A stretch of 64,000 nucleotides of DNA from positions 1 to 64,000 of the forward strand of contig NZ_RDQF01000005.1 of NCBI RefSeq assembly GCF_004114425.1, read 5' to 3'. The notes under the pieces are model-generated. The model did no database searches. It saw only the letters and a program-made list of their open reading frames with translations, and was not told where the DNA came from. Source of the stretch: Bradyrhizobium vignae. GTDB lineage: Bacteria; Pseudomonadota; Alphaproteobacteria; Rhizobiales; Xanthobacteraceae. Shown here one piece after another: positions 10,395-20,117 of this stretch. Both the position numbers and the translations under genes were made by a program. Within the stretch, counting starts at the first letter, position 1. Each line of letters begins with the position of its first letter.

Positions 10395-11456
10395 TCATGG
10401 TTCCAACGGCTGCGTGTCGAGTCCTCGTGCTGCCGGGGCAATCAGCTCCCGGTATCGTTCTTCGTATTGTTGCGCCATTCGGCGTGCAGTGAAGCGCTCC
10501 TCGAACCGGGCGCGCACCCTCTTTCGATCCAGCTTGCCCAATTCGCCGACCGCCTTGACGGCTTGCTCCTCGCTCTCGACGATGAAACCGGTCAGGCCGT
10601 GTTCGATGACCTCAGGAACCGAGCCGGAGCGATAGGCGATCACCGGTGTTCCGCACGCCATCGCCTCGATCATGACCAATCCGAAGGGCTCCGGCCAAGC
10701 GATTGGAAATACCAGAGCGGCTGCTCCCCGAAGCAATGATTGCTTCTTCACGTCGTCGACTTCGCCGACGAGCTGGATCTTCTCGCCGTCGATCCGGGGC
10801 GCGAGGTGTTTCCTGAAGTAGGCGGTCTCGGCGCGCGGAATCTTCGCGGCGATGCGGAGAGGCATCCGGGCGGCGTGCGCGATACGGATGGCGTCCTCCG
10901 GACCCTTGTCCGCCGTGAGACGGCCAAGAAACGCCAGATAGGACCCGGCCCCGTAGGAGGCGTGCAACAGCTCCGAAGGCAATCCGTGCTGGATCGTTCC
11001 AATCCATTTCGCCTCCGGAAGCGGCAGGCGCTGGTGATCGGAAATCGAGACGAACCTCGCATCGGGGAATTGCCGAACCACGTCAGGCAGCCCAGGCAGA
11101 TCGAGCCGGCCATGCAGGGTTGTCAGGAACGGCACGCCAAGGCGGCTGAGCAATGGCAGATGCAGCCAGTCGACATGGGCGTGGATCACATCGAAGTCTC
11201 TGGCTCGTTTCGCGATTGCCTCCAGCAGCATCGCGCAGGCTGCACTCGGATCGGTGCCCTTCCGGCCGAGACGCAGCGCGCGCGGCCACACCGGGTGGAG
11301 CTTGCCCGTCGTTCGGGAGTCACCGCTGGCGAAGAGGGTGACGTCGTGGCCGCGCTCGACGAGCTCATCCACAAGCCAGGCCACCACCCGCTCGCTGCCG
11401 CCGTAGAGCTTCGGAGGGACGCTTTCGGCCAGGGGAGCGAGCTGGGCGATGCGCAT
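10395..11456 (-). CDS. glycosyltransferase family 4 (GT-B fold)
   Basis: A 353-residue retaining glycosyltransferase that transfers a sugar from a nucleotide donor, probably to a cell-surface glycan or lipid. The acceptor-binding N-terminal Rossmann half has KLYGGSERVVAWL. The donor-binding half has YLAFLGRLTADKGPE and the E-x7-E motif region PEPFGLVMIEAMACGTPVIA. It lies just upstream of the L,D-transpeptidase gene on the same strand, which suggests a role in envelope maintenance. No signal peptide or membrane segment is visible. Confidence 0.9.
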   Translation of the reverse strand: MRIAQLAPLAESVPPKLYGGSERVVAWLVDELVERGHDVTLFASGDSRTTGKLHPVWPRALRLGRKGTDPSAACAMLLEAIAKRARDFDVIHAHVDWLHLPLLSRLGVPFLTTLHGRLDLPGLPDVVRQFPDARFVSISDHQRLPLPEAKWIGTIQHGLPSELLHASYGAGSYLAFLGRLTADKGPEDAIRIAHAARMPLRIAAKIPRAETAYFRKHLAPRIDGEKIQLVGEVDDVKKQSLLRGAAALVFPIAWPEPFGLVMIEAMACGTPVIAYRSGSVPEVIEHGLTGFIVESEEQAVKAVGELGKLDRKRVRARFEERFTARRMAQQYEERYRELIAPAARGLDTQPLEP

Positions 11457-11587
11457 GAGAGCCTGCTACACCGCTGAACGAAGAATGAACACGATAGCTG
11501 CGGATAGAAGGTTCGAAATCGCCAGCAGCGTCCAATCCGGCCTCGCGCTTGCGCTCGCCACGCGACAGGCGAGACCCTCAATGAACC

Positions 11588-11803
11588 TCAACATTCGTCA
11601 TCGGAAAGCCGCTCGAGATAGGCAAGCCCGAATGCTGCGAGTTCCTGGGCGTCGCCGTTACTCTCTCGCGCTTCCCGCCTCCCTTGCAGATGACGCTCGA
11701 GCAGGCAGCGACGGCCATCCGCAGCATCGACATCGCGATGCCGGGCGCGGTACACGCACCATGCGGTGTCAACCGCAGTTCGTAGTGGGCCGTCATCGAC
11801 CAT
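11588..11803 (-). CDS. small hypothetical protein
   Basis: A 71-residue, mostly helical, charged protein (RTAVDTAWCVYRARHRDVDA, then CLLERHLQGRREA, and ELAAFGLAYLERLSDDEC at the end). The pattern resembles short conserved proteins of rhizobia, but I cannot name a family. The start may be the ATG at 11803 or an earlier one at 11833. It stands in the otherwise empty 480 bp between the glycosyltransferase gene and pdxA. Function unknown. Confidence 0.45.
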   Translation of the reverse strand: MVDDGPLRTAVDTAWCVYRARHRDVDAADGRRCLLERHLQGRREARESNGDAQELAAFGLAYLERLSDDEC

Positions 11804-11943
11804 GTTCCAGCTCCGACGTGGGAGATTGTTCATGGGTCGCCAACTCGTCGCGACGGCGGAAGTTTCCAGTTTTTCCCTAAAGTCTAAGTCTGCGCGCAAG
11901 GCGCGCGCGGTAGTCGGCGCTCGCTCCCCCCGTGCGTGCAAAA

Positions 11944-12948
11944 TCAGCCAGAACGAGTCACCGCCATCTCCGTTGCGAGCAGCAGAGCAGCGCGGCTAGC
12001 GCCAATCGATGCGATGCCTTGCCCTGCGATGTCGTAGGCAGTGCCGTGCGCGGGCGTGCAGATCGGAAACGGGAAGCCGCCAAGCAACGTCACGCCACGA
12101 TCGAAGCCCATCAGCTTCATGGCGATCTGGCCCTGGTCATGATACATGGTCAGCACGGCATCGAACGCGCCGGCCCTGGCGCGCAGGAACACGGTGTCGG
12201 CCGGGAACGGTCCCTCCGCGGCAATGCCCTCGCGCTGGCCGTCCGCGACCACCGGCGCAATCACCTCGATCTCCTCGCGGCCGAAATTGCCGCCGTCGCC
12301 GGCGTGCGGATTGAGGCCTGCGACGGCGATGCGCGGCCGCGCGAAGCCGGCCTTGCGCATGCAGGAATCGGTCAGCCTGAGCGCGCGATGAATGCGCTCG
12401 CTCGACAGCTTTGCAGCCACGTCCTTCAGCGGGATGTGCGAAGTGACCCGTGCATTCCAGAGCCGGTCCAGCACGTTGAATTCGCTTGCCGGCGTCTTGA
12501 GGCCGACGACCTCGGCCGAGAACGCGATCTCGTCATCGTACTCGGCACGGGCAAAGCGCATCGCCTGCTTGTTGAAGGGGGTGAAACAGACCGCGTCGAC
12601 GTGGCCGTCGCGGCCGAGTTCGAGCGCGTGCCGATAGTTCGTCAGCGCGAATTTGCCGCCGGCAAGGGTCGCGGTCCTCGGCTCGACCTCGCTGAGGTCG
12701 AGGTGGCGGAGATCGACGAACAGTGCATCTTCCTGCGCCGCGCGAAGCTCGACACCCTGCTCCACCATCGTCAGCTCCGGCTCGAGGCCGGCAATGCGCG
12801 CGCCTTCGTCGAAGATGCGGCGGTCGCCGATGACGACGAGCCGACAGCTCGCGCGGATGTCGTCCTGCGCCACTAGCTTCGCCGTCAGCTCGGGGCTGAT
12901 GCCGGCGGGATCTCCCATTGCCAATGCAATGAGCGGCTTTGCGGTCAT
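11944..12948 (-). CDS. PdxA-family dehydrogenase, divergent type lacking the GHTE motif
   Basis: A 334-residue member of the 4-hydroxythreonine-4-phosphate dehydrogenase family (NAD-dependent oxidation followed by decarboxylation). Conserved parts are MGDPAGISPELTAK at the start, LNPHAGDGGNFGREE (second metal-ligand His), MYHDQGQIAMK, and PAHGTAYDIAG (third metal-ligand His). The usual first metal-ligand motif GHTE after the TAPINK-like segment is replaced: here TPFNKQAM is followed by YDDEIAFSAEVVG. Its start overlaps the tctA stop by ATGA, so it is the last gene of the TctABC/CoA-transferase operon. Together these points suggest a catabolic PdxA2-type enzyme for the transported acid rather than vitamin B6 synthesis, although that is inference. 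Confidence 0.82.
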   Translation of the reverse strand: MTAKPLIALAMGDPAGISPELTAKLVAQDDIRASCRLVVIGDRRIFDEGARIAGLEPELTMVEQGVELRAAQEDALFVDLRHLDLSEVEPRTATLAGGKFALTNYRHALELGRDGHVDAVCFTPFNKQAMRFARAEYDDEIAFSAEVVGLKTPASEFNVLDRLWNARVTSHIPLKDVAAKLSSERIHRALRLTDSCMRKAGFARPRIAVAGLNPHAGDGGNFGREEIEVIAPVVADGQREGIAAEGPFPADTVFLRARAGAFDAVLTMYHDQGQIAMKLMGFDRGVTLLGGFPFPICTPAHGTAYDIAGQGIASIGASRAALLLATEMAVTRSG

Positions 12949-14483
12949 ATGATCACCTTTTCCTGGGCTGGAGTGTCGATTGCGGGCGACGCTGGCCTGC
13001 GCCAGAGACGTGTGAGCTGCAAGACCAGCGGCAGCAGCAGCAGCGCGATGCCGCCCACGATCAGGCACGTCACCAACTTGTTCGCAAAGAAGATGCTAAG
13101 TGATCCCTTTGAGATCAGCATCGATTGCCGGAACGCGTCCTCGGCCTTGTCGCCGATCACGATCGCGAGCACGAGCGGCGCCAGCGGATAGAACAGCTTC
13201 TTGAAGAGATAGCCGACGATGCCGAACCCCAGCATCATGACCACGTCGAGATAGGAGTTCGACACCGAATAGGCGCCGACGACGCAGATGATCACGATCA
13301 GGGGCGCGATCACGACGAAGGGAATCCGCATCAAGGCGGCGAACACGGGCACGGTCATCAGCACCAGCGCGACCGCGACGATGTTGCCGACATACATCGA
13401 GGCGATCAGGCCCCAGACGAAGTCCTTGCTATCGACGAACAGCATCGGCCCGGGATTGAGACCCCAGATCATCAACCCGCCCATCATCACGGCCGCAGTG
13501 GCCGAGCCTGGAATGCCGAGCGAGAGCATCGGCAACAGCGCACTGGTCCCGGCGGCATGATCGGCGGTCTCCGGCGAGATGATGCCTTCGACCTCTCCGG
13601 TGCCGAAATGCCGGCCACGGCGGGAGAAGCGGCGGGCGATGCCGTAGCTCATGAAGGAGGCCGCGGTCGGGCCGCCCGGCGTGATCCCCATCCAGCAGCC
13701 GATCGCGGCGCTGCGCAGCAGGGCAACGCCATGCCGCGGCAGGCGCCCGACGGCGCGAAACACCTCGCGCCAATCGATCTTCGAGGACACGGCGCGGGCG
13801 TGAAACTCCTCCTCGACCGCGACCAGGAGCTCGCCGATGCCGAACAGGCCCATCACCGCGACGACGAAGCTGACGCCCTTGACCAGCTCATCTACGCCCA
13901 TGGTGAGACGCACGCTGCCGGAGACCGTGTCGATGCCGATGGCGGCGATCGCAAAGCCGATCGCCAGCGCCACGACGGTCTTGACCGGTGCCGCACCGCC
14001 CATGCCGACGAAGCTGGCAAAGGCGAGGAAATAGACCGCAAAATACTCGGCCGGCCCGAACGCGAGCGCAACCTGCGCCACCCAGGATGCGAGGAAGGTG
14101 ATCAGGATGACGCCGATCAGCGCGCCGAAAGCCGCGGAGCCGAAGGCGGTCGCGAGCGCCGTGGTCGGCCGGCCGTCGCGTGCCATCGGATAGCCGTCGA
14201 AGGTGGTCGCGACCGACGATGGCTCGCCGGGAATGTTGAACAGGATCGAGGTCACCGAGCCGCCGAACAGCGCGCCCCAATACATGCTCGAGAGCAGGAT
14301 GATCGCTGAGACCGGCTGCATGCCGAAGGTCAGCGGCAATAGCAGCGACACCCCGTTCGGCGCGCCCAGTCCCGGCAGCACGCCGACGAGAATGCCGAGC
14401 AGCACGCCAACCGCCATCAGGGCCAGATGCGGCACCGTGACCGCAATGGTGAAGCCGTGCAGGAGTTCCTGGAGATTGTCCAT
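12945..14483 (-). CDS. tctA: tripartite tricarboxylate transporter, large permease TctA
   Basis: Large membrane subunit of a TTT-family, ion-gradient-driven, binding-protein-dependent carboxylate importer in the inner membrane. The 512-residue product shows about 11-12 hydrophobic segments and the family signatures VLPGLGAPNGVSLLLPLTFG near residue 35-55 and SLGIPGSATAAVMMGGLMIWG in the middle. The length is typical. It lies 12 bp after tctB and overlaps the next gene, pdxA-like, by 4 bp, which indicates translational coupling. The substrate is not determined, but a di- or tricarboxylate or a hydroxylated or aromatic acid is expected. Confidence 0.95.
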   Translation of the reverse strand: MDNLQELLHGFTIAVTVPHLALMAVGVLLGILVGVLPGLGAPNGVSLLLPLTFGMQPVSAIILLSSMYWGALFGGSVTSILFNIPGEPSSVATTFDGYPMARDGRPTTALATAFGSAAFGALIGVILITFLASWVAQVALAFGPAEYFAVYFLAFASFVGMGGAAPVKTVVALAIGFAIAAIGIDTVSGSVRLTMGVDELVKGVSFVVAVMGLFGIGELLVAVEEEFHARAVSSKIDWREVFRAVGRLPRHGVALLRSAAIGCWMGITPGGPTAASFMSYGIARRFSRRGRHFGTGEVEGIISPETADHAAGTSALLPMLSLGIPGSATAAVMMGGLMIWGLNPGPMLFVDSKDFVWGLIASMYVGNIVAVALVLMTVPVFAALMRIPFVVIAPLIVIICVVGAYSVSNSYLDVVMMLGFGIVGYLFKKLFYPLAPLVLAIVIGDKAEDAFRQSMLISKGSLSIFFANKLVTCLIVGGIALLLLPLVLQLTRLWRRPASPAIDTPAQEKVII

Positions 14484-14495
14484 CTCGCTGCCCCC

Positions 14496-14978
14496 TCAGA
14501 AACCAAGCGCGGCGGCGAGCGCGCCGTGCGGCAGGCTGACTTGGAATAAGCGCTCGAACACGACGTAGAGCGCGAGCGCCGTGGCCGCCGCCATGGCGAG
14601 CGCGCGCGGCATGGATTGGTGCCTGGGGATCGCCAGCACCGAAAAGACATACAGGGCCGAGGCGACGTACATCCCGGCAAGCGGGATCGCAGCGACGAAG
14701 ATCGCAGCCGGTACGAACAGGCCGGCGAGCCGCCGCAGCTCGATGGACGTGATGGCGATGGGGACGTTTGCCACTGTCGCGGCCGACAGCACGCCGCGCA
14801 CCAGATTGTAGAGGCTCCCGAGCACGATGACGATGCCGGTCAGGAACGGGAACGTGCCGGCATCGACGCCTGCGCTCGACCAGCCGATGCCGTTGTCGAG
14901 GCTGGAGACGACGACGGCGACACCGAAGCTGCCGGCGAGGACGGCGGTCGCAAGTTCAAGCGCACGACGGGAGATCAT
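14496..14978 (-). CDS. tctB: tripartite tricarboxylate transporter, small permease TctB
   Basis: Small membrane subunit of the TTT transporter, 160 residues with four predicted membrane helices (for example ATAVLAGSFGVAVVVSSL, FLTGIVIVLGSLYNLV, and LFVPAAIFVAAIPLAGMYVA). TctB proteins are poorly conserved, so the call rests on length, topology, and position between tctC and tctA with gaps of 11 and 12 bp. The ATG at 14978 was chosen because it opens directly into the first helix after the tctC stop. Confidence 0.9.
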   Translation of the reverse strand: MISRRALELATAVLAGSFGVAVVVSSLDNGIGWSSAGVDAGTFPFLTGIVIVLGSLYNLVRGVLSAATVANVPIAITSIELRRLAGLFVPAAIFVAAIPLAGMYVASALYVFSVLAIPRHQSMPRALAMAAATALALYVVFERLFQVSLPHGALAAALGF

Positions 14979-14989
14979 GGCGTAATGCC

Positions 14990-15982
14990 TTACTTGACCA
15001 GCCAGCCCTGCTCGCTCGCGACCTGCTTGACGTGATCGAGGTCCTCCTTGATGAATTTGTCGAACTCGGCACCAGTCAGGAACGTGTCGACCTGGGAGGT
15101 CTTCTCGATGTAGTCCTTCCACTCCGGCGTTGCCTGCACCTTCCTCATGAGGTCGACATAGAACGCGGCCTGCTCCGGCGTGACCTTGCCGGGCAGCCAC
15201 ACGGTGCGCGGCTGCTCATATTGCTTGATGTCGAGGCCCTGCTCGACGCAGGTCGGAACATCGCTCCAGCCTTCGGTCGCGGTGACCTTCGGCCCCTGCG
15301 GCAGCCGCTTCGGGCTGAACACGCAGAGCGGCCGCTGCGTGCCGCCCCGCCATTGCCCGAGGCTTTCGCTGGGATTGTTGACGTGGGAGTCGAGATGTCC
15401 GCCGGCGAGCTGCACGGCGGTCTCGGCGCCGCTCTTGAAAGGGATATAGGTCAGCTTGACCTTGCCGGCCTTCTCGATCATGCGCGTCAGCACCTCGTCG
15501 GTGTCCTTCGACTGCGCGCCGCCCATCTTGAATTCGCCCGATGCGGCCGCCTTGAGATAGTCGCCCGCCGTCTTGTACGGCGCGTCCTGCTTGACCCAGA
15601 GCAAGAACTCGTCCTGCGCCATCGCCGCGATCGGGGTGAGATCGGTGTAGTTGAAGGCGACCTTGGAGACGAGCGGTTGCTGCCAGGCATTCGAGGTGCC
15701 GAAGATCACCTTGTAGGGGTCGCCCGCGGAGGCCTTGCCGTAGACATAGCCCTCGGCGCCGCTGCCGCCGCCCTTGTTGACGACGACGATCGGCTGCTCC
15801 GTCAGCTTGTGCTTGGTAATGATGTTCTGCACCGCGCGCGCGAGATTGTCGGTGCCGCCGCCAGGCCCGGCGGTGGCGACGAACTCGATCGGCTTTTGTG
15901 GTTGCCAGGCGGCACTCGCCGGCATCGTGCCGACCAGCACGGCTATGGCCGCAGAGAGCAGAAATGTTGACGTCCGACCCAT
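14990..15982 (-). CDS. tctC: tripartite tricarboxylate transporter substrate-binding protein TctC
   Basis: Periplasmic solute receptor that delivers the substrate to TctAB. The 330-residue product has a signal peptide (residues 1-25, ending PASAA), then KPIEFVATAGPGGGTDNLAR, the typical loop that binds the carboxylate, and a two-lobed fold of the Bug/TctC type. GGAGGAAATC precedes the ATG at 15982. It lies 46 bp after the CoA-transferase gene on the same strand. Bug proteins bind very varied acids, so the ligand must come from the enzymes of the operon. Confidence 0.94.
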   Translation of the reverse strand: MGRTSTFLLSAAIAVLVGTMPASAAWQPQKPIEFVATAGPGGGTDNLARAVQNIITKHKLTEQPIVVVNKGGGSGAEGYVYGKASAGDPYKVIFGTSNAWQQPLVSKVAFNYTDLTPIAAMAQDEFLLWVKQDAPYKTAGDYLKAAASGEFKMGGAQSKDTDEVLTRMIEKAGKVKLTYIPFKSGAETAVQLAGGHLDSHVNNPSESLGQWRGGTQRPLCVFSPKRLPQGPKVTATEGWSDVPTCVEQGLDIKQYEQPRTVWLPGKVTPEQAAFYVDLMRKVQATPEWKDYIEKTSQVDTFLTGAEFDKFIKEDLDHVKQVASEQGWLVK

Positions 15983-16028
15983 GATTTCCTCCAGCTGATC
16001 TTGTCTTTTGTTGTTGTCGGCCCCCTGT

Positions 16029-17288
16029 TCAGGCGACGCGTTCCTCGCGTTGTCCCGATGCGAGCACGATCGCGCCTTCTTTTTCGAGCGCTTCGATTCG
16101 TGACTGGTCGAACCCGTGCTCGGCCAGCACCTCGCTCGTGTGCTCACCATAGACCGGCGCGCCTGACAGCACTTTGCCTGGCGTCTCCGAAAACTTGATC
16201 GGAAGCCCGATCGTCTTGACGGGACCGAGCGTGGAATGCTCGACCTCGACGACCATCTCGCGCGCCAGCGTCTGCGGATCGTTTAAGGCCTCCAGCATGT
16301 CGTGCACGGGGCCGCACGGCACGCCCCTCTCGTCCAGCGCCGCCAGCCAATGCGCCCGCGACTTGGTGCGGAAGCGTTCGCTCAGGACGGCTTCGAGCTC
16401 TTTCAGATTGGCCATGCGATCGGCGCCCGTGACGAAGCGCGGATCGGCGGCAAGCTCGCTCGCGCCGAGCGCTTCCAGCATCAGCAGCCAATGCTTCTTG
16501 TTGGCGCCGCCGACCACGAGCCAGCCGTCCGAGGCTTCGAACGCCTGATACGGCGCATTGAGCGGATGCGCCGAGCCCATGGCGCGCGGCGCTGTGCCGG
16601 CCGCAAGCGCAATGGTCGACTGCCAATAGGTCTGCACCAGGGCGGCTTCATAGAGCGAGGTCTCGACCCACTGCCCTTTGCCGGTCTTGAGACGATGCGC
16701 GTAGGCCGCAAGGATGCCCATGCTCGCGAGCAGGCCGGCCGTGATGTCGGACAGCGGCGGACCGCATTTGACGGGCGGACCGTCCGGGCGTTCGCCGGTA
16801 AAGCTCATGATGCCGCTCATCGCCTGCGCGACGAGGTCAAATCCCCTGCGGTGCTTGTAGGGACCGGTGCGGCCGAAACCCGACAGCGAGCAGTAGATCA
16901 GCGCCGGGAATTCCGTGTGCAGCGCCTCGTAGCCGAAGCCGAGGCGCTCCATCGCGCCCGGCGCAAAGTTCTCGACCAGCACGTCGGCATCCGCGATCAG
17001 CCGTCGCAGCACCTGTTTGCCACCGTCGGTCTTCAGATCCAGCACGATGCCGCGCTTGTTGCGGTTCATCATCAGGAAGGACGCCGCCTCCTCGCCGATC
17101 TTCGGCGGCACCGAATGGCGGGTGTCGTCACCGTTGGGCCACTTCTCGATCTTGATGACGTCGGCGCCCATGTCGGCGAGCATCAAGGTGCAGGTCGGCC
17201 CGGCCATGACATGGGTGAGATCGATGACCTTGAGGCCGGCCAGCGGTCCCGAACGGCGGGAGGTGGATTGAGATCGGTCGCTTTGCAT
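16029..17288 (-). CDS. CaiB/BaiF type III CoA-transferase
   Basis: Transfers CoA from a donor acyl-CoA to a carboxylic acid in the cytoplasm. The 419-residue protein has the family opening LAGLKVIDLTHVMAGPTCT, ADVIKIEKW, and the GPPLSDITAG segment carrying the catalytic Asp that forms the acyl-enzyme. Its gene starts 9 bp after the enoyl-CoA hydratase gene ends, and the TctC gene follows after 46 bp. The natural reading is that the imported acid is activated to its CoA ester here and then processed by the crotonase. The exact donor and acceptor cannot be read from sequence. Confidence 0.92.
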   Translation of the reverse strand: MQSDRSQSTSRRSGPLAGLKVIDLTHVMAGPTCTLMLADMGADVIKIEKWPNGDDTRHSVPPKIGEEAASFLMMNRNKRGIVLDLKTDGGKQVLRRLIADADVLVENFAPGAMERLGFGYEALHTEFPALIYCSLSGFGRTGPYKHRRGFDLVAQAMSGIMSFTGERPDGPPVKCGPPLSDITAGLLASMGILAAYAHRLKTGKGQWVETSLYEAALVQTYWQSTIALAAGTAPRAMGSAHPLNAPYQAFEASDGWLVVGGANKKHWLLMLEALGASELAADPRFVTGADRMANLKELEAVLSERFRTKSRAHWLAALDERGVPCGPVHDMLEALNDPQTLAREMVVEVEHSTLGPVKTIGLPIKFSETPGKVLSGAPVYGEHTSEVLAEHGFDQSRIEALEKEGAIVLASGQREERVA

Positions 17289-17297
17289 CGGCTCGTC

Positions 17298-18092
17298 CTA
17301 TTGGCCGCGCCATTGCGGCGCGCGCTTGTTGAGGAAAGCATCGAGCCCTTCGCGAAAGTCCTGGCTCGTGTAGCACATCAGGATGAGGTCCTCGCCCTCG
17401 TCCCGGGTCAGCCGCCTTTGCAGGCGGGCGACCGCCTGCTTGGTCGCATTCAGCGTCAGCGGCGCATGGCTCGCGAGGAGGCGGGCCACCTCCTCGGCAC
17501 GCTGGTCGAGGACCGCAAGATCGTCGACGACCTCGCCCAGCAGCCCGATGCTCGCAGCCTCCGCGGCATCGACAAGGCGCGCGGTGAAGATGAGATCCTT
17601 GACGCGCGCGGCGCCGATGAGCGCGGTGAGACGGCTGACATTGGACATCGACAGGCAGTTGCCGAGCGTCCTGGCGATGGGGAATCCGATTCTCGCAGCT
17701 TTCGTGCCGATGCGGAGGTCGCAGGCCGCAGCAATGCCCGCCCCGCCTCCGGTACAGAACCCGTTGATCGCCGCGATCGTCGGCACCCGGCACTGCTCCA
17801 GCGTGGTCAGCACGCGATCGATGCGGTTCTCGTAGTCGATCGCGTCCTGCGGCGTCCTGAATTCGCGGAACTGGTTGATGTCCGTGCCCGAGGCGAAGGC
17901 CTTGTCGCCGGCCCCGCGCAGCACCAGCACCTTGATCGCATGGTCGCCGTTGGCCTCCTCGCAGATCGCGGCAAGCCGTTCGTACATGGCGAAGGTGAAG
18001 GCATTGCGGGCCTGCGGTCGGTTGAAGGTGATCCGCCCGATGCCCTCGTCGCGCTCGAAGACGAGGTCTTCTGCCGCCAGTTGCAGGTCCAT
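17298..18092 (-). CDS. enoyl-CoA hydratase/isomerase (crotonase) family protein
   Basis: A 264-residue crotonase-fold enzyme acting on acyl-CoA thioesters. The oxyanion-hole segments are FASGTDINQF and INGFCTGGGAGIAAACDLRI. At the position of the second catalytic Glu there is no clear Glu, so it could be a hydratase, isomerase or hydrolase variant. The ATG at 18092 is preceded by GAAAGGTGTGAGG. It is the first gene of a six-gene operon and is divergent from the GntR-type regulator. Operator-like repeats lie just upstream. Confidence 0.88.
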   Translation of the reverse strand: MDLQLAAEDLVFERDEGIGRITFNRPQARNAFTFAMYERLAAICEEANGDHAIKVLVLRGAGDKAFASGTDINQFREFRTPQDAIDYENRIDRVLTTLEQCRVPTIAAINGFCTGGGAGIAAACDLRIGTKAARIGFPIARTLGNCLSMSNVSRLTALIGAARVKDLIFTARLVDAAEAASIGLLGEVVDDLAVLDQRAEEVARLLASHAPLTLNATKQAVARLQRRLTRDEGEDLILMCYTSQDFREGLDAFLNKRAPQWRGQ

Positions 18093-18111
18093 TTCCTCAC
18101 ACCTTTCTGTC

Positions 18112-18193
18112 TTTTGCATTTTTGAATGCAAAATTTGGAATTTTCAAGCTATAACTTACAAATAAATGCGTATAAGTTCACTTTTGCATTCAA
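18112..18193. promoter_or_regulatory. operator-like inverted repeats in the divergent promoter region
   Basis: Within the AT-rich 116 bp between the crotonase gene and the GntR-type gene, TTGAATGCAAAA occurs at 18122-18133 and its exact reverse complement TTTTGCATTCAA at 18182-18193. The first copy is also part of a palindrome, TTTTGCATT-4 bp-AATGCAAAA, at 18112-18133. FadR/GntR-type regulators bind short palindromes of this kind next to their own genes. Autoregulation and control of the catabolic operon by the adjacent regulator is therefore likely, but inferred. Confidence 0.65.
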
Positions 18194-18208
18194 ATTGAGC
18201 TCGGACCC

Positions 18209-18874
18209 ATGCTTCACGAGGAAGTCGTCGGCCGCATCCGCGCCATCCTACTCGACGGCGAAATCCCCCCGGGTGCGAGGATTCCGGAGCGCGAGCTGTG
18301 CGAGCGGCTCGAGATTTCGCGCACGCCGCTGCGCGAGGCGCTCAAGGTGCTGGCGGCGGAAGGGCTCGTGCAGCTGCTGCCGCATCGCGGCTCGCGCGCA
18401 GCAAAACTGACCGACAAGGACATGCGCGACCTGTTCGAGGTCTGCCAGGGCCTGGAGGCCCTCGCCGGCGAGCTCGCCTGCGAGCGCATCACGGACGCCG
18501 AGATCGACGCGATCGCCACGGCCCATGCGGCCATGGTGCAGCATTATCGCGACGGCGACCTGATCCAGTACTATCGCGGCAACCGCGCCATTCACGAAGC
18601 CATCGTCACCGCAGCCGGAAATCCCGTGCTCGCGGGGCTTTACACCTCGGTGACCGCGCGCATCCGGCGGGCGCGCTACGTCACGCCGATGACGCCGCAG
18701 CGCTGGGCATTCGCGGTGAAGGAGCATGAGGCGATCCTCAACGCGCTTCAGCGCCGCGACGGCGTCGGCCTCGCCCACATCCTGCGTGCGCATCTGCGTC
18801 ACAAGCGCGAAGAGGTTCTACAGGCGGGCTTTGCCGAGACCGAGGGCGGCGATCTTACGCTGCGTATCGCGTGA
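18209..18874 (+). CDS. GntR-family transcriptional regulator, FCD (FadR-type) subfamily
   Basis: A 221-residue DNA-binding regulator. The winged helix-turn-helix fills residues 1-70 (ARIPERELCERLEISRTPLREALKVLAAEGLVQLLPHRG). The helical FCD ligand-binding domain follows, with metal-ligand-type residues in FEVCQGLEALAGELA, NRAIHEAIVTAAGNP and HLRHKREEV. FCD regulators usually respond to carboxylic acids or sugars acids and repress a neighbouring catabolic operon. The divergent TTT/CoA-transferase operon is the obvious target. Confidence 0.93.
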   Translation: MLHEEVVGRIRAILLDGEIPPGARIPERELCERLEISRTPLREALKVLAAEGLVQLLPHRGSRAAKLTDKDMRDLFEVCQGLEALAGELACERITDAEIDAIATAHAAMVQHYRDGDLIQYYRGNRAIHEAIVTAAGNPVLAGLYTSVTARIRRARYVTPMTPQRWAFAVKEHEAILNALQRRDGVGLAHILRAHLRHKREEVLQAGFAETEGGDLTLRIA

Positions 18875-18878
18875 GGTG

Positions 18879-19319
18879 CTATCCCCCGGGCTCCGTCAGT
18901 TCGAACGAGCCCTCGGGTGGACTGTCGCCGAAGACCTCGACCAGACGAAAACGCTCGCACATCAGCATCATGTCATCGCTATATCGTCCGAGCCTGCCGA
19001 AATAGGACTGATGGGCGCGGCGCCAATAGGCCAAGCTCCGGTCGCCTTCTCCTTCCTCATGCGCAAACGCTGCGTCGACCTCGTTGAAGCGCCGATACGT
19101 CACGTCGACGGATTCGATGACGCAACGCGGCTCTCCTCGGCCGTCGAGCACGACCCAGCGCTCACCGGGCGTGGAGGTGTTCGGCTCGTCTTCGGTGCTG
19201 CACGTCGCGGTCTTGATGCCCTTGATGACGAGCTCGACCAGTTCATCCGCCAGCGCGGGGCTGTCGCCGAACGCGAAGGTTCGGAGATGTCGATATGGTT
19301 CGGGGATCCGCTTGCCCAT
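18879..19319 (-). CDS. ASCH-domain protein
   Basis: A 146-residue protein of the ASCH superfamily, a PUA-like beta-barrel fold proposed to bind RNA or nucleotides. Visible features are the N-terminal FAFGDSPALADELVELVIKG, then IKTATCSTED, GERWVVLDGRGEPRCVIES, and the C-terminal helix-strand with YFGRLGRYSDDMMLMCERF. Some relatives are amidohydrolases acting on modified nucleosides. The ATG at 19319 starts the conserved part. It ends only 4 bp from the stop of the convergent GntR-type gene. Its role here is unknown. Confidence 0.8.
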   Translation of the reverse strand: MGKRIPEPYRHLRTFAFGDSPALADELVELVIKGIKTATCSTEDEPNTSTPGERWVVLDGRGEPRCVIESVDVTYRRFNEVDAAFAHEEGEGDRSLAYWRRAHQSYFGRLGRYSDDMMLMCERFRLVEVFGDSPPEGSFELTEPGG

Positions 19320-19397: not shown

Positions 19398-20117
19398 CTA
19401 GCAGCCCAATCTATCGGCGATGCCGCCAAAGTCCTTTGCAACGATGTCCCAATTGCCGGTCGCCTCGAAATCGACCTTCTGCAAGGGACCGTATTCGGTT
19501 GGTCGCGCCACGAAGGCAGTCTTCAGCCCGTACTTCTGCGCGGCAGCGAGATCGCCGTTGTGGGCGGCGACCATCATCACCTCTTCCGGCTTGAGGCACA
19601 GCAGACGGGCGGCGCCGAGATAGGTCTCGGGATCAGGCTTGTAGTGCTCGAATAGCTCGGCCGACATGATGAGGTCCCACGGGAGCCCTGCAAACTTCGC
19701 CATGTTGGTGAGCAGCGCCACGTTGCCGTTCGAGAGCGGCGCGATCACGAATTTGGATTTCAGCCGCTTGAGGCCGGCGACGCTGTCGGGCCAGGGATGC
19801 AGGCGGTGCCAGCCCTTGGTGAGATAATCGAGATCGGCCTCGGTGAGGCCCTTGATTTCGAGTTTCTCGACCAGCTTCTCCAGCGAGCGGCGGTGCAGAT
19901 CGTCGAGCATGACGTAGCCGCGTTCCGGGTGCTTGCGCACATCATCCATGGACGCGACGTACATGCCGCGCCAGCCGTCGACCAGCGCGGTCCAGTCGGT
20001 GGCGATGCCGCGCTGTTTGCCCCACCACATGAAGTCGCTGATCAGGCTGGTGCGCCAGTCGACCACGGTGCCGAACACGTCGAAGACCAGGGCTTTGACG
20101 GCGGAGAGATCGGACAT
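19398..20117 (-). CDS. haloacid dehalogenase type II (HAD superfamily)
   Basis: A 239-residue HAD hydrolase. Motif I is FDVFGTVVDW with the nucleophile Asp, motif II is APLSNGN, motif III is HYKPDPE, and motif IV is MVAAHNGDLAAA. The order and spacing match L-2-haloacid dehalogenases, which release halide from 2-haloalkanoic acids. Many close relatives are not proven dehalogenases, so the activity may be on another small acid or phosphate ester. A palindromic repeat lies just upstream, between this gene and glpX. Confidence 0.85.
   Translation of the reverse strand: MSDLSAVKALVFDVFGTVVDWRTSLISDFMWWGKQRGIATDWTALVDGWRGMYVASMDDVRKHPERGYVMLDDLHRRSLEKLVEKLEIKGLTEADLDYLTKGWHRLHPWPDSVAGLKRLKSKFVIAPLSNGNVALLTNMAKFAGLPWDLIMSAELFEHYKPDPETYLGAARLLCLKPEEVMMVAAHNGDLAAAQKYGLKTAFVARPTEYGPLQKVDFEATGNWDIVAKDFGGIADRLGC

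Follow-up and report, generated by a model that had tools for sequence, protein, structure and literature searches.

The 64,000-nucleotide stretch of DNA analysed here (the window) is positions 1 to 64,000 of contig NZ_RDQF01000005.1 of Bradyrhizobium vignae (assembly GCF_004114425.1; 8.18 Mb in 156 contigs), and between positions 11,944 and 18,874 it carries a putative catabolic operon of six minus-strand genes facing a divergent regulatory gene on the plus strand. Nearest the regulator lies the gene for a crotonase-fold protein of the NCBIfam PRK06144 subfamily (17298..18092, 264 amino acids), followed after 9 bp by that for a family III coenzyme A (CoA)-transferase (16029..17288, 419 amino acids) and, 46 bp further on, by that for the periplasmic solute-binding protein TctC (14990..15982, 330 amino acids). 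The gene for the small membrane subunit TctB (14496..14978, 160 amino acids) begins 11 bp beyond tctC, that for the large permease subunit TctA (12945..14483, 512 amino acids) another 12 bp beyond tctB, and the gene that overlaps tctA by 4 bp encodes a PdxA-like protein of the Glu-type (DE) subfamily (11944..12948, 334 amino acids). The start ATGs of the crotonase, TctC, TctB and PdxA-like genes were chosen within the listed open reading frames (ORFs). The divergent gene (18209..18874, plus strand) encodes a 221-residue GntR-family regulator with an FCD domain.

An earlier note, made from the sequence alone, had described six same-strand genes with these gaps and this overlap, and its coordinates are exact to the base. 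The families it named, a TctABC transporter, a CoA-activating enzyme, a crotonase, a PdxA relative and a divergent FCD-type GntR regulator, are borne out by Pfam matches above the curated cut-offs (ECH_1, CoA_transf_3, TctC, TctB, TctA, PdxA, GntR and FCD). The tripartite tricarboxylate transporter is complete, its three genes being adjacent and each above its Pfam cut-off.

Conservation and control of the seven-gene unit

Three marker genes were followed through a sample of 98 Bradyrhizobium genomes, the host genome included, in which the CoA-transferase has an ortholog in 61, TctC in 62 and the PdxA-like protein in 58 (the last at identities of at least 69%). All three are present in 57 of the 98 genomes, any of the three in 62 and none in 36, and in 56 of the 57 complete genomes they are collinear within 6 kb; in the remaining one (G029) the genes are divided between two contigs and the pieces lie at the contigs' ends. 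One genome (G090) is without a CoA-transferase ortholog, on a short contig, and four carry the CoA-transferase and TctC without PdxA. The Fisher value for co-occurrence, 4e-21, is merely descriptive because the 98 genomes are related to one another.

The four genomes without PdxA (G037, G053, G073 and G083, read as loci L209, L210, L211 and L212, respectively) represent variants of the operon. The first three keep the genes for GntR, the crotonase, the CoA-transferase and TctCBA and yield no match to PdxA over the 19 kb that were read, whereas G083 has neither crotonase nor PdxA in its 19 kb. The CoA-transferase gene of G037 has an in-frame stop near its end, which leaves an ORF of 416 amino acids. 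No other member of the operon is as dispensable as the PdxA-like gene, which G037, G053 and G073 lack while retaining the remaining six.

The same picture emerges from 26 loci selected because they hold a close PdxA (the window and 25 others; L049 and L140 come from the same genome). Gene maps of the loci examined were drawn from codon-position guanine-cytosine content, and several loci (e.g., L052, L056, L070, L071, L078 and L092) were re-read by homology. The seven genes stand in the same order and orientation in 25 of the 26, including one from Pseudolabrys sp. Root1462 (L128), and the 26th (L047) ends at a contig edge. The unit spans 6.8–7.1 kb in those 25 loci, and the flanking genes vary between species groups while the order of the seven stays. 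The earlier note had proposed a search for the same gene set elsewhere, and both samples return it; its picture of a self-contained module under GntR control is supported by gene order, by near all-or-none co-occurrence and by the conserved paired sites described below. We regard it as almost certain that the seven genes form one genetic unit. Because about three-fifths of the sampled species carry it (judged by the TctC ortholog, 62 of 98), the unit is likely part of how Bradyrhizobium, a major soil and root-nodule genus, feeds.

The shared operator-like sites that the note had mentioned were also found, at two places between the divergent genes. The first, TTTTGAATGCAAAA (18120-18133, plus strand, 14 bp), and the second, ATTTGAATGCAAAA (18182-18195, minus strand), differ by 1 mismatch and have their centres 62 bp apart. 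With up to 2 mismatches allowed, the window yields 3 matches, all in these two positions, where shuffled sequence gives an expectation of 0.10, and copies with 0–1 mismatch occur in the whole 8.18-Mb genome only here. Both sites (at most 2 mismatches) recur in 25 of 25 intergenic regions, the window's included, at a centre spacing of 62 or 63 bp throughout. This conservation is observed directly, and it is the trace to be expected of a local GntR protein acting on its own operon through these candidate sites; from it we infer GntR binding, its repressing sign and its effector. In such a scheme GntR dimers would bind the two sites 62 bp apart and would repress transcription in both directions until the substrate or its CoA ester is present. 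The genome scan returned 13 matches in all, 11 of them with 2 mismatches, and 10 of these 11 lie elsewhere (at 9 places) against 3 for a reversed control, so the regulon may extend beyond the local operon. A promoter-like match at 18147-18118 (9 of 12 positions) overlaps site 1, but 2 such matches were found against 0.8 expected, and it was not used.

Altered active sites in two of the enzymes

The PdxA-like protein scores 262.7 bits against TIGR00557, the curated PdxA equivalog model, below the cut-off of 290.35. In an alignment with Escherichia coli PdxA it keeps two aspartates and the three metal-binding histidines, which are His166, His211 and His266 in the E. coli enzyme. The substrate residues there are His136, Thr137, Lys274, Asn283 and Arg292 (HTKNR), and of these only Lys274 is kept, the other four reading Glu, Ile, Thr and Ile (EIKTI in the window). 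The metal histidines are present in 106 of 106 aligned PdxA rows, and 101 of the 106 have Glu at the His136 position, two read YKKTI and three are canonical HTKNR, these last being the two other PdxA genes of the host genome, one of them counted twice. In 81 rows built on the best 80 of 595 relatives, 80 are of the Glu type and one is canonical, which by its tree position is a second PdxA in locus L134. All of these rows were selected for their resemblance to the window protein, so the shares are not frequencies and say nothing about PdxA at large. The YKKTI pocket, a third type, belongs to relatives in loci L086 and L088, and the gene adjoining the L086 relative scores above the choline-sulfatase cut-off.

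The fold is close to that of PdxA proper. The predicted model has a mean predicted local distance difference test score (pLDDT) of 90.2 and superposes on E. coli PdxA (1ps6) with a Z score of 38.7 and a root-mean-square deviation (rmsd) of 2.2 over 319 aligned residues. The earlier note had spoken of a dehydrogenase-decarboxylase-like variant of PdxA; its membership of the PdxA family stands, and the description can be narrowed to a subfamily in which most substrate residues of true PdxA are replaced. On these residues the protein is probably not a pyridoxine enzyme. That it might nevertheless be a second pyridoxine-pathway dehydrogenase, or one acting on D-threonate 4-phosphate, would fit its best matches, which are models named PdxA, and its TIGR00557 score; yet that score falls short of the curated cut-off, four of five substrate residues differ, two canonical paralogs sit elsewhere in the host genome and no kinase is among the six genes, which makes such an assignment extremely unlikely.

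The fold is shared by relatives of the diol dehydrogenase TphB of the terephthalate (tph) operon of Comamonas, an enzyme that is encoded together with the TctC-family protein TphC (PMC8556258). The operon resembles that system in combining a TctC-family solute-binding gene with an enzyme of this kind, and a route for a terephthalate-like aromatic acid, with a TctC-family binding protein and a TphB-type decarboxylating dehydrogenase, has in its favour that the PdxA-like model matches a terephthalate diol dehydrogenase (8zj7) at Z 33.6. The window protein nonetheless matches PdxA proper better than it does the diol dehydrogenases, as the higher Z score for 1ps6 indicates. The tph operon has dioxygenase genes rather than a CoA-transferase and a crotonase and leaves the membrane transporter genes to a separate tpi operon, and no ring-hydroxylating dioxygenase is found among the six genes here. 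An aromatic substrate of this kind is therefore very unlikely.

The crotonase-fold protein passes the PRK06144 cut-off comfortably (408 bits against 272), and its fold is confirmed by a model that matches 4olq (Z 30.8, rmsd 2.2, 257 aligned). In enoyl-CoA hydratase the Glu of the PE..LG motif is catalytic. The window protein reads PIARTLGNCLS at that place and so has no such residue, and in 44 of 54 crotonase rows there is a TLGN motif, one extra residue and no PE..LG glutamate (it is present in 5z7r). The window type is also found in locus L139, while the crotonases of L068 and L117 read PVKRLGLVV and those of L075 and L166 read PAA(R/K)LGLGYG, neither type having that glutamate. Because the hydratase glutamate is absent across the subfamily sampled, we favour decarboxylation or C–C cleavage over hydration, and put the chances of non-hydratase chemistry at about even. 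None of the 50 fold-search rows shown bears the name methylmalonyl-CoA decarboxylase, which is not evidence in either direction.

The CoA-transferase is a clear member of its family (Pfam CoA_transf_3, 443.1 bits against a cut-off of 23.3). Its nearest curated NCBIfam model is succinate-glutarate CoA-transferase, at 331.5 bits against a cut-off of 750, and other near models are formyl-CoA/oxalate and mesaconate CoA-transferases, none of which reached its own cut-off. The CoA-transferases of L065, L068 and L117 are 65–67% identical to that of the window, and two that lie beside aminotransferase genes, in L105 and L118, are 59% and 53% identical; because the enzymes of both contexts are so similar, the same type of acceptor may be used in the PdxA and the aminotransferase settings.

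This nearness to dicarboxylate enzymes can also be accommodated by a more ordinary route, in which a plain dicarboxylate is imported by TctABC, activated by the CoA-transferase and broken down in a β-oxidation-like manner by a true enoyl-CoA hydratase, PdxA being a passenger or serving a second substrate. In its favour, the crotonase scores above the threshold of a subfamily that carries the name enoyl-CoA hydratase, its fold resembles that of hydratases, and PdxA is dispensable. Set against this are the missing hydratase glutamate in the TLGN-type rows, the absence of both an acyl-CoA dehydrogenase and a 3-hydroxyacyl-CoA dehydrogenase among the six genes, and the presence of PdxA in 58 of the 62 genomes with TctC, and we consider this route possible but on balance doubtful.

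Genomic settings of Glu-type PdxA relatives

Glu-type PdxA relatives occur in several settings: with TctABC, a xylose-isomerase-like protein and a dihydroxyacetone kinase; with amidohydrolase, β-hydroxyacid dehydrogenase and TRAP genes; with enolase-superfamily and dihydrodipicolinate synthase (DHDPS)-family enzymes (these relatives being 43–49% identical to the window PdxA); and, in L081, with MmgE/PrpD and isocitrate-dehydrogenase-family genes. One relative sits with a protein weakly like β-propellers (below the cut-off, with nothing at 1e-5). The common thread appears to be non-phosphorylated hydroxy or sugar acids. The Rhizobiaceae modules L034, L036 and L037 share with the window a Glu-type PdxA and TctABC opposite a divergent GntR gene, but have sugar-isomerase-like and dihydroxyacetone-kinase genes in place of the CoA-transferase and crotonase, the kinase of L037 being unannotated and known as an ORF alone. 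The Glu-type copies of L033-L037, on five plasmids, are annotated as 4-hydroxythreonine-4-phosphate dehydrogenase PdxA. Another recurrent neighbour of Glu-type PdxA is a gene of the DRL catalytic-domain family (L098:14465-15802, L058, L059, L068, L117 and L139). In the Pseudolabrys locus, an MmgE/PrpD-family gene (11104-12474) directly follows PdxA, and a second (16746-18092) lies beside another crotonase.

The combination seen in the window is itself repeated. In 30 rows, spread over five groups in the tree of PdxA (6 changes), both a CoA-transferase and a crotonase are encoded no more than 10 kb from PdxA. These figures follow a strict neighbour label (30 rows with the pair, 95 without and 38 unlabelled; 8 rows had just one of the two genes), which replaced a looser one (9 changes) in which three 4-kb loci had been given the label by assumption and L110, L112, L163 and L174 had been counted, where one gene is absent or the pair lies farther off. 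The tree was built quickly, has long branches and does not distinguish gain from loss, and it was used only for repeated association. In L068, L117 and L139 the pair stands near PdxA together with TRAP transporter genes.

Ralstonia eutropha reportedly has an L-ascorbate pathway, said to have been described by Stack et al. in 2020, that uses a PdxA-family 2-carboxy-L-lyxonate decarboxylase, and Glu-type PdxA relatives do sit in Cupriavidus and Burkholderia clusters that resemble this pathway in part. The operon could represent a branch of an ascorbate-derived sugar-acid route in which PdxA decarboxylates a 2-carboxy sugar acid. The relatives that sit with enolase-superfamily and DHDPS-family genes are in line with this, as is the Burkholderia anthina locus L148, which also has an amidohydrolase-type gene and the weak, below-cut-off β-propeller similarity, part of the composition reported for that pathway. 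The six flanking genes tested in Cupriavidus necator A5-1 (L188) include no cytochrome b561, gluconolactonase or β-propeller of the kind expected in the ascorbate cluster. The window unit itself has no lactonase, sugar-acid dehydratase or DHDPS gene and no room for them in the 6.8–7.1 kb that its seven genes fill (the flanking genes are identified in part), and it has CoA chemistry, which is not known to belong to that pathway. The likeness was judged on relatives of the window PdxA. In support of the route, 2-carboxy-L-threo-pentonate is a proposed product of diketogulonate (PMC6225978), but on the whole we judge the ascorbate connection unlikely.

The host genome also holds a sister locus (L099; contig C67:39500-58500), whose GntR, crotonase, TctA, TctC and TctB proteins are 55%, 70%, 60%, 46% and 27% identical to those of the window. 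It differs in having two BhcA-like class V aminotransferases (below the BhcA model cut-off), a 1008-residue flavin/iron-sulfur (FAD/FeS) oxidase-type protein and an HbpS-like protein, and neither PdxA nor a CoA-transferase was found in the 19 kb read. Its make-up again suggests acids of the small hydroxy and oxo kinds. Immediately ahead of the FAD/FeS gene, at C67:52743, is a palindromic match to the operator-like sequence with 2 mismatches.

A proposed route for a (hydroxy)dicarboxylate

From the observed gene order, linkage, conserved sites, residue replacements and predicted folds we infer a chemistry and a substrate class, and tentatively propose, at somewhat less than even confidence for the scheme as a whole, a GntR-controlled operon for the uptake and CoA-dependent breakdown of an acid that is probably a hydroxylated dicarboxylate. 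Uptake of an acid and its activation by CoA are the likely part of this scheme. TctC would bind the acid in the periplasm and TctAB would import it, as is usual for their family, after which the family III CoA-transferase would charge it with CoA taken from a donor in the cell, for instance succinyl-CoA. The crotonase-fold enzyme would then act on the thioester, by decarboxylation or C–C cleavage in preference to hydration. The PdxA-like protein, in an accessory role, would oxidise and/or decarboxylate a non-phosphorylated β-hydroxy acid, and in doing so might either make the acceptor for the CoA-transferase or handle a related substrate. Least secure in this scheme are the reaction of the crotonase and the position of the PdxA-like protein, before or beside the CoA steps.

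Several observations weigh against this scheme. The PdxA-linked loci use three crotonase types, and an absent glutamate is not proof of other chemistry, since PDB 4k2n, named an enoyl-CoA hydratase/carnitine racemase, is also without it in the alignment, while the fold search points at hydratases and isomerases generally and singles out no reaction. Among the labelled PdxA rows of the subfamily, 95 of 125 are without the CoA-transferase/crotonase pair, and the pair also occurs without PdxA, including beside BhcA-like aminotransferases. In a sample of the phylum, nine genomes outside the genus have crotonase and PdxA matches, and in only two of these genomes (G465 and G653) do the matches lie within 20 kb of each other; genomes of the genus have 46–77 crotonase candidates each in that sample, the 33% identity label being a loose one, and the counts of pairs near PdxA stand without a control for chance neighbourhood. 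Promoter-like and terminator-like matches are near chance level.

A bolder variant of the proposed scheme makes the CoA-transferase and the glutamate-less crotonase a CoA-recycling decarboxylase, in which a geminal dicarboxylate of the malonate type would receive CoA, the crotonase-fold enzyme would remove CO2 and the CoA would be handed to the next molecule, while the Glu-type PdxA would remove a second carboxyl group with nicotinamide adenine dinucleotide (NAD) acting catalytically. That the enzymes form such a route, so far undescribed, for sugar acids released by plants that are branched or carry a 2-carboxy group is a long shot.

All of the protein families involved are known; neither their combination nor the two altered active sites nor the substrate is described in the open-licence literature searched, and the parts of PMC6321122 and PMC7105596 available to us do not describe this operon. 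Overall, the finding is sound and useful, and ordinary in kind until the substrate is found. Naming that substrate would also make it easier to find better names for groups of proteins at present listed as vitamin B6 enzymes or as enoyl-CoA hydratases, whose key residues differ from those that the names imply.

Beyond the regulator, the window holds a gene for an ASCH-domain protein (18879-19319, minus strand), convergent with gntR, and past it a haloacid dehalogenase type II gene (19398-20117, minus strand), whose product scores 162.1 bits against an NCBIfam cut-off of 125.4.

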